28,841 nucleotides of DNA from IMG/VR virus record IMGVR_UViG_3300028045_000069, positions 1-28,841 of that record, one strand, 5' to 3'. Position numbers and translations under genes: made by a program. Below are positions 18,708 through 25,718 of the stretch, piece after piece. The stretch is from a virus. The notes below the pieces were generated by a model. The model saw only the letters and a list, made by a program, of their open reading frames with translations, did no database searches and was not told where the DNA came from. Positions within the stretch are counted from its first letter, which is position 1; each line of letters begins with the position of its first letter.

Positions 18708-19379
18708 ATGAAATCATTTTTTAAAACGACCAAAAATAACACGGTTGAGTTTGTAGGGGATAAGTTGGAAATATTCCTACCAAAGCGATTCGATCAGTAT
18801 GGAACCAGTATAACGGATCATGTGGAATGTATGGGCATTTTCTCCCTGCTTATTAACGATAAAATTAAGAAGGGTTTTTTTCTTCCAGCTATGATTACCA
18901 TTGAGCCATCAGAAGTTGGCAATGCCTCAATAAACAAAGTGCCGTTTCATAAATTTACTTTAGTCAAGGGGGACAAATTTTTACGAACGACTGAAATAAT
19001 AATGAATCAGTCCCTAGCATTTATATGCTTCCTAGAATTTATTTTTCTCGGAAACCGGATGGAGTTCATGGACTACGACTTTTCTGCTCTTATGTTCGAG
19101 GTAGTCCAAACTACCTGTGGTGTTAATTTTGGCGTAGAACGAACACTATTTGAGATCATTATTTCCCATCTAGAACGAATGCCAAATAATTTGACTGCTT
19201 ATTTTCGATCATCTGACATGAAAGGAGATAGCGTTTCAATCCCTATGCGAGCAGTAGCGCAAGCTGCAGTATCAACCTCTAGCAGAATGATGGGATCGTA
19301 TCTAAATGATTCAATTAATTCTTCTTTAGTTAATCACTCCGACGAGGTATCCCCAATAGAAAACTTACTACGACAATAA
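18708..19379 (+). CDS. Unrecognised virion-like protein (223 aa)
   Basis: The start ATG lies 3 bp after the previous stop, and the weak ribosome binding site is inside the upstream gene's end, suggesting translational coupling. The protein begins with a beta-rich segment (for example EFVGDKLEIFLPKRFDQYG), passes through hydrophobic helical stretches (FICFLEFIFLG) and ends in a Ser/Asn-rich helical tail finishing with SPIENLLRQ. From memory, jumbo myoviruses carry similar-looking proteins next to head genes, but I cannot name the family with certainty. It directly precedes the prohead protease, so a role in the head or neck is likely. The hydrophobic stretches look too short and broken for a true membrane anchor. 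Confidence 0.8.
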   Translation: MKSFFKTTKNNTVEFVGDKLEIFLPKRFDQYGTSITDHVECMGIFSLLINDKIKKGFFLPAMITIEPSEVGNASINKVPFHKFTLVKGDKFLRTTEIIMNQSLAFICFLEFIFLGNRMEFMDYDFSALMFEVVQTTCGVNFGVERTLFEIIISHLERMPNNLTAYFRSSDMKGDSVSIPMRAVAQAAVSTSSRMMGSYLNDSINSSLVNHSDEVSPIENLLRQ

Positions 19380-19392
19380 TGAGGAATAGATT

Positions 19393-20211
19393 ATGACACC
19401 AATGCCGCGCAATTCCAAGTACGCGATCGAACTTAGAAAATTAGATGTGATAAACGGGCAACGGCTTAAGGAACTTAGGCCAAATTCAGCAGGGTTTTAT
19501 AAGGTTCCATTGTTTGTGATGGATGCCGTTTCGAGAAATGCTTCTTGGTATTATCCAGAATCAGTTATTGCTGCGCACAACAATCCAAATATGAAATTCT
19601 ATAAGGCATTAACGGAAGGGAATCTTGAAGGGGAATGGCAGCATCCTTTCATGGACGACAGTATCAATCGTATAGTTAAAATTGATAGAACAAAAACTTC
19701 TCATGTTATCTCTGCTATAGCAACGGAACAATCTCCGGATGGAAAGGCAACTATCATTTATGGTTGGATTCGTCCAGCAGGCCCATACAAACAAGCATTA
19801 GTGGATTCCTTCGCAGACCCACATATTAATACTGCATTCAGCATCAGAAGCTTAGTGTCTATCGTTAAGAAAGTTAAAGATGTGGATCATAAAAAAATGC
19901 TAGCAGTGATCACCTACGATTCTTGCGATGGACCTGGGTTTGAGATGGCATCTAAACGATATGCCCCGGATGTTTCGAGCAACGAATCAATGTCAGTAGA
20001 CTTTGATATAAAGGATACTGCGAGCTGTGATGATCTGTATTCTGGGCTTGCGGTAGAGAGTATAGAGAACGGATCTATTATGGATCTTTTTGGAACAGAC
20101 GAAATCAATATAGTTTCTAAAGTTCTTGGAATCTACGATCCTGCTACCAGAAAAGTGTTAGACAATGCTAAGCCGCAATCTATTTTTCATAACTGTTTCA
20201 GGCATGCCTAA
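19393..20211 (+). CDS. Prohead maturation protease (T4 gp21/S80-like, 272 aa)
   Basis: This serine protease would sit in the prohead core, process scaffold and capsid precursors and then degrade itself. The sequence shows the family hallmarks. The GEWQHP segment carries catalytic His84 (as in the Gly-Glu-x-x-His-Pro pattern), and the FSIRSL segment about 65 residues later carries candidate nucleophile Ser150. In T4 gp21 the equivalents are His85 and Ser140. A third triad residue cannot be assigned by eye. The C-terminal 70 residues are Ser/Asp-rich and less conserved in character, as expected for a self-cleaved tail. The ribosome binding site is GAGGAA before the ATG at 19393. It is followed 11 bp later by the ClpP-like gene. 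Confidence 0.75.
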   Translation: MTPMPRNSKYAIELRKLDVINGQRLKELRPNSAGFYKVPLFVMDAVSRNASWYYPESVIAAHNNPNMKFYKALTEGNLEGEWQHPFMDDSINRIVKIDRTKTSHVISAIATEQSPDGKATIIYGWIRPAGPYKQALVDSFADPHINTAFSIRSLVSIVKKVKDVDHKKMLAVITYDSCDGPGFEMASKRYAPDVSSNESMSVDFDIKDTASCDDLYSGLAVESIENGSIMDLFGTDEINIVSKVLGIYDPATRKVLDNAKPQSIFHNCFRHA

Positions 20212-20222
20212 AGGAATCTATT

Positions 20223-20819
20223 ATGGCGCAAATACGTTTCAATGAAGATAACCCATTACCAAAACAGGATACTGCCCATTCAGTCCTTGTTACGTCGACT
20301 ATCTCCGGGACCAATACTTACACCGTAGCAACCATACACGGAATAGTAGGTCCTTCTCGGACACTGCAGACATTATTAGCCGTGCTAACTAATGCTACCA
20401 AAGGAGACAAAGTAGATATAATTATCGACAGTCCGGGAGGGCATGTCTCTACTGGAATAATAATAATGAATGCAATAATGCAATCAAGCGCTAGCGTAAA
20501 GACTATCGCCCAAGGCGACTGTGCTTCCATTGCCTGTTGTATATGGTCAGTTGGGGACGAACTTGAAGCACAAGACTGGTCAGAGATCATGGTGCATATG
20601 TCTTCTCATGGTGCCCGAGGAAACAGTAAAGCCATAGAACTTGATGCCCAGCAAATCATTAGGTTTATGGAGTTTATCTTCGAGTATCAAAAAAATCGTG
20701 GACTATTTACGGAAGAAGAAATTGATAGAGTTTGCAACAATAAACTTGATCTATATCTTACTGGGACCGAAATGCAAGAACGATTAAAGTCCATTAAGTC
20801 TAGCGGAAAGGAGTTATAA
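20223..20819 (+). CDS. ClpP-like serine protease with intact triad (198 aa)
   Basis: This is a small Clp-family protease, close in length to bacterial ClpP (about 200 aa). Motifs in order are the IIIDSPGG oxyanion-type loop at 66-73, DCASIA with nucleophile Ser102, IMVHMSS with His125, and NKLDLYLT with Asp176. The spacing fits the ClpP Ser-His-Asp triad. No ClpX-type ATPase is encoded in the window, so it could act alone in capsid maturation, use a host unfoldase, or process a specific precursor. Many phages with other head types use ClpP-like proteins as prohead proteases; here an S80-type protease lies directly upstream, so two different head-type proteases sit side by side. AAAGGA precedes the ATG. 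It overlaps the next gene by one base (TAATG). Confidence 0.8.
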   Translation: MAQIRFNEDNPLPKQDTAHSVLVTSTISGTNTYTVATIHGIVGPSRTLQTLLAVLTNATKGDKVDIIIDSPGGHVSTGIIIMNAIMQSSASVKTIAQGDCASIACCIWSVGDELEAQDWSEIMVHMSSHGARGNSKAIELDAQQIIRFMEFIFEYQKNRGLFTEEEIDRVCNNKLDLYLTGTEMQERLKSIKSSGKEL

Positions 20820-21553
20820 TGAAATTTACTATTACAGATCCGGTACCAGAACTGGTTTCGGTAGACGAAGCTTTTCAGGCGTCCTTTGAGAGTATTGATT
20901 TCCGACCGCTTGACGATCCGCCATTACCGGCAACCGAAGCGTGGATAGACGATTTGGTCATTGGGGAAAATTATCTTTTAAGTAATGAGGACAATAGATA
21001 TAAAGGATCAAGAGAACGACCACCCTATTTAATTATGCAAGATAGTACTACTGATAAAAGCATAGTACATATCAGAATATTTGATTTTGTACAGGATTCC
21101 CCAGAGTTACTATTACTCTTGGGTATGGCGAGCCAGCACACAGAGATAGTTATCTTTTTTGATTGCTGCTCATTTAGTGACAATTTCCAAAAGGCTTTGA
21201 TGAATGCTATCAAGTATTCGAAAGCTTCAGTTGTCACTGTAGCTAATGCTATCTTCGAACTATCTTCATTATTAGTATGGTTGTCTGGTAGCCGGCTCAA
21301 GGTAGGGCCATTTTCACGAGTACAGTTTGGAGACAGGAGTATCGTAACATACGGTTCCAGGCAGGATATAGCCGAGGGACTAGAGCACAATAACAAAACT
21401 GCAGAAAATTTTTTTAAGTATGTCATAGATCATGGACTACTTACAGCAGAAGAGTATAGTGATATTATGGTACGTAAGGCCTCAGTAAATCTTTATGGGG
21501 AAGAATTGACAGAACGAGTAGCTGTCGCCAATGAGATTAAATCCAAACTGTAG
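20819..21553 (+). CDS. Degenerate ClpP-like paralogue, catalytic residues lost (244 aa)
   Basis: The ATG overlaps the TAA of the ClpP-like gene (TAATG), with AAGGAG inside that gene, so the two are coupled. Residues about 105-235 align by eye with the neighbour from its residue 60 onward: shared MNAI, VW/IW in the nucleophile helix, GL[FL]T.EE near the C-terminal helix, and NLYGEELTER against DLYLTGTEMQERL. The SPGG loop is replaced by FDCCSFSD. The His position appears to be Gln169, and the Asp is Asn224. A Ser pair (149-150) lies near the nucleophile site but the alignment there needs a gap. An N-terminal extension of about 75 residues is Asp/Pro-rich. It is probably inactive and may be a structural or regulatory partner of the active protease. 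It could also be a separate virion protein on the same fold. Confidence 0.75.
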   Translation: MKFTITDPVPELVSVDEAFQASFESIDFRPLDDPPLPATEAWIDDLVIGENYLLSNEDNRYKGSRERPPYLIMQDSTTDKSIVHIRIFDFVQDSPELLLLLGMASQHTEIVIFFDCCSFSDNFQKALMNAIKYSKASVVTVANAIFELSSLLVWLSGSRLKVGPFSRVQFGDRSIVTYGSRQDIAEGLEHNNKTAENFFKYVIDHGLLTAEEYSDIMVRKASVNLYGEELTERVAVANEIKSKL

Positions 21554-21585: not shown

Positions 21586-22563
21586 ATGGATGCACATTGC
21601 GATACGCTTAGTGACATAATAGAGTATATGTCCACAATAGAGAATTTTAAACACGAAATAAGGGTGCTGTTAGATTTACATACTTCGATTGAGGCGTATG
21701 GAATGTCCCCAGCACTATCTGCTTTTGTTGATCGGTCGGGCGGTCTCACGCAGTTGTTCGGAGAAGAGTTCGGAGACCTTTCCCCAGAAGCAGCATGTGA
21801 GGGATTACTCTCCTCTGTTAAGGAAGCATTCATTAAGTTCATCGAGATGGTTAAGGATTTTTTTGCCAAGCTTCATGCGTTTCTATTCAGGACTACTAAG
21901 GATAGCGAAGCTTCAACGGATCGAATTGTAAAGACTGTGAAGAGAATGACCAAACTTCCTGATGTCAGTACTGTTCCATTAAAGACAAAGGTTCCCTCGG
22001 TAGAAACTGCTCAGTTATACGGGGATCTAGCCAGTGAGGCAAGTCGGGCGTACACTAAAGTATTCGAACATTTTAGGGACAGTGATCCTATAACATTTTT
22101 GGATGAGCCTATTAGACAACTGTACGAGAATTTTCGACATAAGATCAAGTGCGGTCGTTCAAGGGCTCAAAAGAAGCAGGACGTTTATTTCTTTAAGATC
22201 GACGACCCAATCATGGAAGAGGGACAAACCCTTGATACCTCTGGATGGGGATCGCTTATCTCTAATCCGGCAGAGTATAAGAGGATGGAAAAATCAAACA
22301 AAGAGCAGCTCCGCGCCGTGCAGGCTCGCTCGGGACTTTTTGTCAATGTGATGCAAGCGACTAAGTTACGGCTCGACGAGCTCGAACCGAAACAAGCTAA
22401 GCTATTAATGGGAGATATGCAAGCATGCACAAAGCATTTTAATAAGTTATTATCCCCTTCCGTTAAAATAGCCTTGGCCCTCAAGAGCATGAAAGAAGAA
22501 GTAGAGGGTATTCTTAGGGCACATAATTCTAACAGTGGAGCCGAGTCTTTTTCAATGACATAA
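21586..22563 (+). CDS. Internal-head-like protein A, paralogue of 24750-25718 (325 aa)
   Basis: The ribosome binding site GAAGGGAT precedes the ATG at 21586. Residues 24-94 match residues 30-100 of the protein encoded at 24750. Shared features are EIR.LL, GMS.ALS (39-45), VD..G.LT, ACEG (70-73) and DFFA (91-94), with a further SGW match in the C-terminal half. The centre of the N-terminal domain forms an amphipathic, Phe-rich helix, and the rest is Lys/Glu-rich and helical. This plan recalls internal head or prohead core proteins of large myoviruses, and the position between proteases and terminase supports that. Direct evidence for function is absent. A scaffold or inner-capsid component cleaved by the nearby protease is the working inference. 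Confidence 0.8.
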   Translation: MDAHCDTLSDIIEYMSTIENFKHEIRVLLDLHTSIEAYGMSPALSAFVDRSGGLTQLFGEEFGDLSPEAACEGLLSSVKEAFIKFIEMVKDFFAKLHAFLFRTTKDSEASTDRIVKTVKRMTKLPDVSTVPLKTKVPSVETAQLYGDLASEASRAYTKVFEHFRDSDPITFLDEPIRQLYENFRHKIKCGRSRAQKKQDVYFFKIDDPIMEEGQTLDTSGWGSLISNPAEYKRMEKSNKEQLRAVQARSGLFVNVMQATKLRLDELEPKQAKLLMGDMQACTKHFNKLLSPSVKIALALKSMKEEVEGILRAHNSNSGAESFSMT

Positions 22564-22634: not shown

Positions 22635-24734
22635 ATGATTCTATTTGAGCAGGACATACGTGCTTCGAAGGTGTTAATTGACTACCAAACAAAAAATGCC
22701 TCCTTTATACATATGTCTATGGTGCTACAGCGCATGGGCGTTGCAAACAATAAATTCTTTTTAGCGCTTCATCAACAGGAACTGCAAGGGATTGATCCGC
22801 ATAACCTGAAAGATACTTCATTGGAACTCAAGCAACGAATAGCGTATGAATCTAAAATAAATCCATGGTACTACGTTCGAGAAATAGTTCGAGTTCCAGT
22901 TACTGGACCAATACCGACACCGTACCAGCTTAATCGAGCAAATCTTGCGCTGACCTGGTTATTCCTTAGTAACATCGATACCTTCTTAACCATGCCTCGA
23001 CAGATAGGAAAAACAGTAGCGGTGCTTGTTCCTGATAGCTGGTTAATGTATATAGCTGGGGTCAACTACCACATGGCCTACTTAGCTAATAGTACTAATC
23101 TTATTCATCAAACAGTAGATAAGATGAGAGAAATTCGAAACGAACTGCCCCCATATCTCGTGCACAAACATGTCCGAAATACTGACAACAAAGAAGGCCT
23201 TTCTTATCATCCGCTCGGAACAAGGTACATAACTAAGGTAGCTCAATCTGATAGGAGGGCAGCCATAAAGTTAGGAATGGGACAATCTAATCCAAAGCAA
23301 CATTGGGATGAAGTATGTAACTTTCCAAATATAGATATCTCTCTACCATCGGCCATCTCGGCGACATCGGCGGCTAAGGATCAAGCAAAGTTGGCCGAGA
23401 TTCCAGTATCGAATATGTACACGTCTACCGCTGGAGATCTACAAGATCCATCAGGACAATACGCATACAGTATGAAATCTGGGGCTCTTCGATTTAATGA
23501 GAAAATGTATGACGCGCCAAATGTCGAAGCCTTACACGCCGTGCTAAACCGTAATTCTCAAAATAAAATGTTTTATCTGGAATACTCATATCTGCAGTTA
23601 GGAAAGTCCAAGGAATGGTTTAGAGAAAAGACTGCGAATATTACTTGCCAAAAAACTATAGAGAAGGATTATTTAAACAGGTGGCAGAAGGGAAGTAAGG
23701 ATGCTATTGTTCCTAAGCGGATGATAGATCTGCTTGAGAATGGAAAGGCAGAGCCACTAAAGACTACTATTTTTGAAACCTTAATTATAAATTGGTACGT
23801 AGATCCAGAAACTCTCACGATGAAAGGTTTCAAAGAGAGACGATTTATAATGGGCGGTGATACATCGGAAAATATCGGTATAGATTTTACCACGCTTGTG
23901 ATGGTCGATCCGCACGATATGACCTTAATTTTTACAATGAGGTGCAACACCTCTAATTTAATATATGTTGCTAAATTGATAGTGAAGTATCTGAAAAAGT
24001 TTGAAAACAGTATTGCGGTGCTAGAACGAAACTATGCAGCTACTTTAATCGACCTCATTATTGTAGAGCTATGCAATGCCGGCCTGAATCCGTTTTTGAA
24101 ATTATTTAACACCGCCATACAAGATTTTAAACCAGGTAACCCGCATCCGAGTACGCTGACCCCAGACGGACCTATACGAAAATGTTTCGGATTTCGGACT
24201 ACCTCGGCGGCTAATTCGAGAAAGTTACTATACAAAGAAGTTCTCATGACGGCAATAGAAAAGAATCATGATAGGATGTTTGATGCTACTTTGATAGATG
24301 AAATAACTAGTCTAACTATTAGAAATGGTAGAGTGGATCATCCGGAAGGATCGCATGACGACTTGCTCATAGCGTACCTACTTACTATATTTTTCATACT
24401 GTTTGGAAAAAATTTGCATATGTACGGAATCAAAGAGGGAGAGTTTTTAGCCGGTATGGCAGACAACGGATCTAAAGTTGATCCAACTGTCAAGGAACGA
24501 CAACGGCAGATACAACAAGAAATAGATAGGATAGAACGATTAGTAGAGAAAACCTCTTCGGAGTTGTTAAAGATTTCTTATGCGAGGGAGCTCAAACATT
24601 TAAAATCTTTGGTCAATGAAGATATTATTTCTGACTCGAGCAATCATGTTATAAGCGTACAACAAGTCAAAGAAGCGGTCAAGCCACCAAAAAGATCCTT
24701 GACCGATCTACACAAACTAATTAATTTCCTATAG
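22635..24734 (+). CDS. terL: Terminase large subunit (699 aa)
   Basis: This is the DNA-packaging motor: an ATPase that pumps DNA through the portal and a nuclease that cuts the concatemer. The ATPase domain has Walker A PRQIGKT (121-127), Walker B with KQHWDE (acidic pair Asp225-Glu226), and the coupling motif TSTAGD (263-268). The RNase H-fold nuclease carries GGD (Asp409), VLERN (Glu464) and SHDDLLIA (Asp575/576), giving the expected acidic triad. It is about 90 residues longer than T4 gp17 (610 aa). The extra C-terminus, about 610-699, is charged and helical (KERQRQIQQEIDRIERLVEK). The ribosome binding site is AGGAGG, 8 nt from the ATG. No small terminase subunit was recognised in the window. 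It is flanked by two paralogous internal-head-like genes. Confidence 0.93.
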   Translation: MILFEQDIRASKVLIDYQTKNASFIHMSMVLQRMGVANNKFFLALHQQELQGIDPHNLKDTSLELKQRIAYESKINPWYYVREIVRVPVTGPIPTPYQLNRANLALTWLFLSNIDTFLTMPRQIGKTVAVLVPDSWLMYIAGVNYHMAYLANSTNLIHQTVDKMREIRNELPPYLVHKHVRNTDNKEGLSYHPLGTRYITKVAQSDRRAAIKLGMGQSNPKQHWDEVCNFPNIDISLPSAISATSAAKDQAKLAEIPVSNMYTSTAGDLQDPSGQYAYSMKSGALRFNEKMYDAPNVEALHAVLNRNSQNKMFYLEYSYLQLGKSKEWFREKTANITCQKTIEKDYLNRWQKGSKDAIVPKRMIDLLENGKAEPLKTTIFETLIINWYVDPETLTMKGFKERRFIMGGDTSENIGIDFTTLVMVDPHDMTLIFTMRCNTSNLIYVAKLIVKYLKKFENSIAVLERNYAATLIDLIIVELCNAGLNPFLKLFNTAIQDFKPGNPHPSTLTPDGPIRKCFGFRTTSAANSRKLLYKEVLMTAIEKNHDRMFDATLIDEITSLTIRNGRVDHPEGSHDDLLIAYLLTIFFILFGKNLHMYGIKEGEFLAGMADNGSKVDPTVKERQRQIQQEIDRIERLVEKTSSELLKISYARELKHLKSLVNEDIISDSSNHVISVQQVKEAVKPPKRSLTDLHKLINFL

Positions 24735-24749
24735 TAAGGGAGACCAGTC

Positions 24750-25718
24750 ATGGATCAACTAGAATATTTTATTGCTGATTACGAATCACACACAATGGTA
24801 TCTGAAAAAATCGCCAGCATGGAGCAACTTGAATATGAGATTCGAATGCTTCTTAATATACATGATGTTATTAAGGCGCACGGAATGTCCGAGGCCCTAT
24901 CACACTACGTTGACATCGATGGAGCGCTCACCGCTATTTGTGGGTCGAACTTTAAAAATTTAGATGCAGCTGCAGCATGCGAGGGAATACTACAAACTAT
25001 CTATGAAGCAATAGTGGCATTGATCCAGAGAGTGGTAGATTTTTTTGCTAACCTCTTTAGTACTTCCCAGAGTAGCGCCGTTAGAAGCGATCGCCTAACT
25101 GAAAACTTTGAAGCTCTCACTAAACAATACCCACACATTAAGGATATTCCAGTGTCTAAGATGTTAGAGGAACAATATTTTAACGGATCAATCATCACGC
25201 ATGAAGAAGCAACTAAGAGAACCATGGCCTACGGCAATTTAGTTATTGCCTACAATCGAATTATCGCACAGGCCGCCGACGGAAAACTTATAGTGACCCG
25301 AAGCGCGCTACATGATTTGATCAAGCAATACAAGGATTTTTTTCAGAAGTCTGCGAGCAATCCATATGCTTTAGCAATAAGTCCTTGTGCCTTGGAAGAT
25401 AAATTGCTCGCTACTAAGTCTGGATGGGACCTCAACACGAATGACTTTGAAAAGTTAGATAAGAAGTATGCACAGATACTAGTGGATATAGTTAAGTATG
25501 AAAAAACCTTAGTTAAGTCCCTGAAAGAACTTAAGAAACGAGTCCTGGATCATGCTGATATTTCTGCCAAGGCATCAATGAATCAAGTAGTAAACATAAT
25601 GTCCGGACTGGGAATATTTGCTACCGAAGTGAAAAAACTTAGTGCTGAAATAAACAAGGTTAAAGTACAGCTTCGGGGCATGATCGAAAAATATGCTAAG
25701 AAAACTAAAGGTAAATAA
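24750..25718 (+). CDS. Internal-head-like protein B, paralogue of 21586-22563 (322 aa)
   Basis: It starts 15 bp after the terminase stop with a GGGAGA ribosome binding site. Residues 30-100 match protein A of the pair, with GMSEALS (45-51), ACEG (76-79) and DFFA (97-100) shared. The Phe-rich amphipathic helix is at about 83-104. The remainder is Lys-rich and helical, ending in a very basic tail (MIEKYAKKTKGK), which could contact DNA inside the head. The N-terminus is about 6 residues longer than in A, and sequence beyond the first 105 residues has diverged strongly, so duplication is old or the two have specialised. The function is not proven. An internal head or core protein is inferred from gene position, helicity and basic tail. 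Confidence 0.8.
   Translation: MDQLEYFIADYESHTMVSEKIASMEQLEYEIRMLLNIHDVIKAHGMSEALSHYVDIDGALTAICGSNFKNLDAAAACEGILQTIYEAIVALIQRVVDFFANLFSTSQSSAVRSDRLTENFEALTKQYPHIKDIPVSKMLEEQYFNGSIITHEEATKRTMAYGNLVIAYNRIIAQAADGKLIVTRSALHDLIKQYKDFFQKSASNPYALAISPCALEDKLLATKSGWDLNTNDFEKLDKKYAQILVDIVKYEKTLVKSLKELKKRVLDHADISAKASMNQVVNIMSGLGIFATEVKKLSAEINKVKVQLRGMIEKYAKKTKGK

Follow-up and report, generated by a model that had tools for sequence, protein, structure and literature searches.

Bacterial ClpP1/ClpP2 hetero-complexes, such as those of Listeria, Mycobacterium tuberculosis and Pseudomonas aeruginosa, bring two ClpP paralogues together in one system, and neither subunit has lost the Ser-His pair. For cyanobacteria, plastids and apicoplasts, it is established that ClpP is accompanied by inactive ClpR subunits (PMC7966870). 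Phage heads have proteases of their own: the S80 proteases of phiKZ-like phages remove long N-terminal propeptides from capsid, portal and ejection proteins, with cleavage after S/A/G-x-E in phiKZ, S/A/G/T-x-E in 201phi2-1 and A-x-E in SPN3US (PMC5694885, PMC10052503). ClpP-type maturation proteases (phrog_94, phrog_133, phrog_2976) are, like the S80 enzymes of phiKZ and SPN3US, head-cluster proteases. The closest published phage case to the locus described here comes from the gene table of BONAISHI, which lists two neighbouring ORFs as Clp protease subunits (PMC6207643). Our literature search, confined to open-licence papers, found no paper on an active/inactive ClpP pair in phage heads, in keeping with the original prediction, which knew of no such pair described for a phage head cluster.

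The window analysed here (28,841 nt) is a complete 28.8-kb IMG/VR virus record. It carries phiKZ-type genes for a tail sheath (phrog_3242), structural proteins, an S80 head protease and a terminase, and by this gene content it comes from a phiKZ-like jumbo phage, of which it covers only part. Unlike the head proteases mentioned above, the ClpP pair that we describe is additional to an S80 enzyme that is itself already a maturation protease. The genes of the locus are:

18708..19379, plus strand: virion structural protein (PHROG match, phrog_2926), a further upstream neighbour whose position is kept in relatives
19393..20211, plus strand: S80 prohead protease, phiKZ gp175 family (PF20034, 1.7e-27; phrog_3014, 1e-26), the conserved upstream neighbour
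20223..20819, plus strand: ClpP1, a ClpP-type serine protease of 198 aa with intact triad (PF00574, 5e-17; phrog_1827, 3e-35)
20810..20821, plus strand: GGAG Shine-Dalgarno sequence (20810-20813) and TAATG stop/start overlap (20817-20821), suggesting translational coupling of ClpP1 and ClpP2
20819..21553, plus strand: ClpP2, a ClpP paralogue of 244 aa without catalytic triad (phrog_1827, 2e-11; hhalign; AlphaFold and Foldseek to ClpP)
21586..22563, plus strand: internal-head-protein-like ORF between ClpP2 and terminase (PF12699 phiKZ_IP, 9e-5, under the gathering score)
22635..24734, plus strand: terminase large subunit, the downstream neighbour (phrog_32359, 4e-36; 35% identity to Vibrio jumbo phage vB_pir03)

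The one-base overlap of the two ORFs had been noted from the sequence alone, as had the Ser102, His125, Asp176 and SPGG loop of the first protein, and all of these stand. ClpP1 is a ClpP (MEROPS S14) by its sequence family (PF00574 over cut-off), its Ser-His-Asp triad and its SPGG-type loop at residues 70-73, and it also matches the three ClpP-type head maturation PHROGs named above. The second protein matches the first along the protease fold, again as originally proposed: a single blastp comparison gives 27% identity over 138 residues without gaps (E=4e-10), and hhalign joins the ClpP1 and ClpP2 families at 99.6% (E=8e-25). Pfam does not recognise ClpP2. An AlphaFold model built from an alignment of ClpP2 proteins only has a core (residues 70-243) mostly at pLDDT >90, and all but one of the 50 Foldseek matches listed for it are ClpP chains, the exception being 5jbw (LiuC) at rank 40. 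A different fold, which would have counted against the proposed homology, was thus not what the model gave. The catalytic positions of the two proteins compare as follows, with contigs and lineages as defined below:

20526..20528, plus strand: codon of ClpP1 Ser102, the nucleophile (from the sequence; Ser in 19/19 contigs)
20595..20597, plus strand: codon of ClpP1 His125 (from the sequence; His in 19/19 contigs)
20748..20750, plus strand: codon of ClpP1 Asp176 (from the sequence; Asp in 11/17 lineages, elsewhere N, C, A, T or E)
21260..21262, plus strand: ClpP2 Leu148 at the Ser position (gapless alignment and family profile alignment)
21320..21322, plus strand: ClpP2 Gly168 at the His position (same two alignments)
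21482..21484, plus strand: ClpP2 Ser222 at the Asp position (same two alignments)

ClpP2 therefore lacks the Ser-His-Asp set of MEROPS S14, and the SPGG is missing as well, as had been claimed. The catalytic degeneration is in fact stronger than first described, since the nucleophile, unmentioned at that time, is also lost, and no intact triad was found elsewhere in the protein. Two of the replacements had been misread: the Gln assigned to the His position (Gln166) and the Asn assigned to the Asp position (Asn224) each lie two residues off in the gapless alignment. By sequence and predicted fold, ClpP2 is a true ClpP paralogue with a dead catalytic site. Our preferred reading, to which we give a probability of roughly one half, is a phage ClpP/ClpR-like hetero-oligomer that acts in head morphogenesis, with ClpP1 as its active and ClpP2 as its inactive subunit, the latter bringing the complex into the prohead.

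A cassette of S80 prohead protease, ClpP1 and degenerate ClpP2, usually followed by a terminase, is found in 18 further IMG/VR contigs, which together with the window make 19 contigs and, with near-copies merged, 17 lineages. These relatives were retrieved with terminase and S80 alignments; single-protein scans of viral contigs with ClpP1, ClpP2 and the window terminase gave no match, and a ClpP alignment across unlike phages yielded no usable pattern for searching. Where compared, the relatives' terminases share about 38-45% identity with that of the window. The S80 protease adjoins the pair in all 19 contigs, which answers the neighbourhood check proposed with the original prediction. ClpP1 retains Ser and His in every lineage and Asp in 11; the other six have N, C, T, A, T and E at the third position (L024, L026, L028, L031, L034 and L196, respectively), so that full ClpP1 activity is uncertain in some lineages. 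A complete triad occurs in ClpP2 in none of the 17: His is never kept, Ser only in L026/L027, and Asp only in L031 and L189. ClpP2 is present in all 14 group records searched with ClpP1 (by ORF search in G002 and G003, as a fusion in G049), and whole-record searches of the group turned up no further ClpP beyond the cassette. We rejected a general distribution among phiKZ-like phages, as the ClpP1 profile matched 0 of 35 other phiKZ-like records compared with 14/14 positive records; the cassette therefore marks one group. A contig from a sheep colon MAG has a related terminase, and the cassette is absent from the stretch of it that was examined.

The pair is also not a one-off pseudogene. All ClpP2s form one clade (support 95/92) and the subgroups L029+L189 and L020+L103+L105+L106 recur in each half of the tree; the single clade implies that the pair is old and co-inherited. 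It might still be asked whether ClpP2 is a decaying, functionless duplicate, as the disappearance of every catalytic residue and the long branches could suggest. We hold this to be very improbable, given that an intact ORF persists in 17 diverged lineages with one old origin and a retained N-terminal motif (see below). ClpP2 does diverge rapidly (median identity 16%; for ClpP1, 29%), and for that reason its contact surface is perhaps not conserved.

In one lineage the two proteins are naturally fused: L028:5584-7116 is a single 510-aa ORF comprising ClpP1, a disordered linker and a dead ClpP2, the second half of which matches the ClpP2 profile (E=9e-9) and, when modelled alone, gave a structure of middling confidence. 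This fusion bears on whether ClpP2 might work apart from ClpP1, as a homo-oligomeric structural head protein that has kept the ClpP fold as a scaffold and lost the enzyme. The lost triad, fast divergence and propeptide-like N-terminus would all fit such a protein; however, ClpP2 never occurs without ClpP1 in the loci read, the two are usually coupled or adjacent, and we judge this role distinctly unlikely. A shared hetero-oligomer is the simplest reading, because ClpP2 has been retained without catalysis, is coupled to ClpP1 and has once been fused to it. The likeness to ClpP/ClpR suggested at the outset is accordingly apt as a working model, the pair being kept in 17 lineages with one clade of inactive members and one natural fusion.

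The N-terminus of ClpP2 may point to the prohead. An extension of about 75 residues had been proposed for it; this is loose as a length, ClpP2 being 46 residues longer than ClpP1, with predicted disorder over residues 1-56 and a first core strand that begins at residue 70. Within it we place one further feature:

20819..20890, plus strand: ClpP2 residues 1-24, a putative capsid-targeting propeptide ending S-F-E|S (S22-F-E24|S25) at a predicted S80 site (motif statistics; disorder 1-56; motif of PMC5694885)

The S80 proteases of this group have conserved sites of the same kind in their own C-terminal part, and at most of these Ser and a hydrophobic residue come next. The corresponding extended pattern, [AGST]-x-E-[ASTG]-hydrophobic, occurs in the ClpP2 N-termini of 14 of 17 lineages (shuffled mean 2.3; 0/5000 shuffles as high), and in 11/14 ClpP2s as against 25/226 other genes of the same loci. 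The P1'/P2' part of this pattern was picked after inspection of the sequences, and the bare S/A/G/T-x-E motif is not enriched (16, versus 14.6 in shuffles); for these reasons we grade S80 cleavage of the predicted propeptide as likely and no higher. The window ClpP1 has no S80-type site of its own. In the fused protein two sites, SGLE|S and GTE|S, lie in the linker between the halves, and the fusion may thus be a polyprotein split by S80. The candidate site in the disordered ClpP2 N-terminus appears to be a new point.

A propeptide of this type would equally suit a protein that is packaged and then ejected with the DNA, such that an injected ClpP1-ClpP2 protease would act early in the host cell; the heads of giant phiKZ-like phages contain numerous ejection proteins whose propeptides S80 cleaves off (PMC5694885, PMC10052503). 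The present data do not separate a protein that is packaged and stays from one that is ejected. Action after ejection is, along with dependence on host unfoldases, one of the two main rivals to a role of the hetero-oligomer in head assembly, although we think it unlikely.

The second main rival concerns the ATPase partner. AAA_2 (PF07724) exceeded its cut-off in 0 of 10 group records of up to 287 kb, and no ClpX/ClpA/ClpC-type unfoldase that would make up a Clp AAA+ system was found in the same genome in these 10 phage records; PF00004 was over its cut-off in 1 of 6 records, so that AAA proteins are no constant feature. Host ClpX or ClpC could serve the phage pair, and it is conceivable that a ClpP/ClpR-like hetero-oligomer joins host Clp unfoldases in the cytoplasm to remodel the proteome of the host, its genes lying among head genes only by chance. 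Known ClpP/ClpR complexes do operate with ClpC (PMC7966870), and a lone ClpP is found outside head clusters in other phages, namely UAVern (beside PhoH), Vequintavirus and ICP1. ClpP genes also lie beside RNA polymerase and helicase genes in the Vibrio phiKZ-like phages BONAISHI, pir03 and Yong XC31. Against this, strict S80 adjacency in 19 contigs and the S80-type site in ClpP2 favour the head, and we regard a cytoplasmic role as rather unlikely.

It should be noted that ClpP without an ATPase cuts peptides and unfolded chains, and an ATPase-free ClpP would for this reason be suited to the clearing of S80 fragments. Our proposal for how the hetero-oligomer would act in head morphogenesis is as follows. 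Translational coupling would keep the amounts of ClpP1 and ClpP2 matched, and ClpP2 would have a structural role, occupying ring positions without cutting. Its disordered N-terminus, ending in S-x-E, would be a capsid-targeting propeptide that carries the complex into the prohead, a placement suggested by the predicted propeptide together with the constant S80 neighbour, and the neighbouring S80 protease would then remove it. Inside the prohead, the ClpP1 sites, needing no Clp ATPase, would cut what S80 leaves behind (scaffold, core and propeptides) to short peptides, which would exit before DNA packaging. The full combination, that is, a mixed ClpP/ClpR-type procapsid protease without ATPase whose inactive subunit is a targeting adaptor with an S80-removed propeptide, and which in one lineage is made as an S80-cut polyprotein, is put forward tentatively, as something short of an even bet. 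A pair of this kind beside the prohead protease would give a compartmented protease a place in phage head assembly, and could explain how giant phages dispose of scaffold and propeptide remnants ahead of DNA packaging.

As in the ClpP/ClpR systems of cyanobacteria, plastids and apicoplasts, an active ClpP is combined here with a homologous subunit that lacks the triad. Homology to ClpP, the ClpP fold, the lost triad and the active ClpP alongside mark ClpP2 as a putative ClpR-type pseudoprotease in its way of working, with no claim to membership in the cyanobacterial/plastid ClpR lineage, since our tree contains no cyanobacterial ClpR and the ClpP2 clade stands beside phage ClpPs. In the PDB, the ClpP2 profile finds its best sequence match in 7eko_A, a chain of the Chlamydomonas chloroplast Clp complex in which Thr aligns with the catalytic His. 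ClpP2 differs from ClpR in lacking all three catalytic residues and the SPGG, in its S80-type site and in grouping with phage ClpPs; it also matches phage PHROGs. The ClpP/ClpR systems also differ in having ClpC/ClpX chaperones (PMC7966870), whereas none of classical type was found in the phage. Several bacterial hetero-complex structures (4ryf, 6iw7, 9ndj) are among the Foldseek matches of the ClpP2 model, but in the phage the second subunit is dead. Ring asymmetry through a dead subunit would have evolved more than once, this being an apparently independent viral case, fixed at a place beside the prohead protease across a phage group.

The closest phage family of both proteins is the phrog_1827 ClpP of ICP1, Vequintavirus and UAVern. 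Unlike the cassette, the single active ClpP gene that whole-record searches show in UAVern and YP-6 lies outside the head cluster. ORF86/ORF87 of BONAISHI and their equivalents in pir03 and Yong XC31 are also tandem ClpP-like genes with one degenerate member in phiKZ-like phages. They differ in their neighbours, the polymerase and helicase genes mentioned above, and in their reversed order, a degenerate ClpP-like ORF preceding the active ClpP (BONAISHI L018:5277-6340, pir03 L017:5716-6731, Yong XC31 L019:6637-7721). Recognition of the first member is marginal in pir03 and fails in Yong XC31. That this is the same pair was rejected, as the degenerate member reaches only 17.6% probability against the ClpP2 family, and by these comparisons the tandem looks independent of the cassette.

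Some relatives show variations in the locus. The ClpP1s of L103:3536-5116, L105:3889-5055, L106:1765-2841 and L020:7462-8496 have long C-terminal tails, acidic and of low complexity, that span about 130-330 residues. In L033:8259-9083, a very acidic 274-aa ORF is inserted between ClpP1 and ClpP2; it was considered as the ClpP2 of this contig and rejected, being an unrelated protein with the real ClpP2 one gene further on.

A search of the window for RNA families and tRNAs found none. In several cultured phiKZ-like phages, the terminase lies directly 3' of two ORFs positionally equivalent to the window's phrog_3184 and phrog_3430 genes; in the window, these genes are separated from the terminase by others, including the S80 protease and the ClpP pair. 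Finally, the terminase is flanked by two ORFs (21586-22563 and 24750-25718) that both resemble phiKZ internal head proteins (PF12699, under cut-off) and have a common 'A[YH]GMS.ALS' stretch near the N-terminus.
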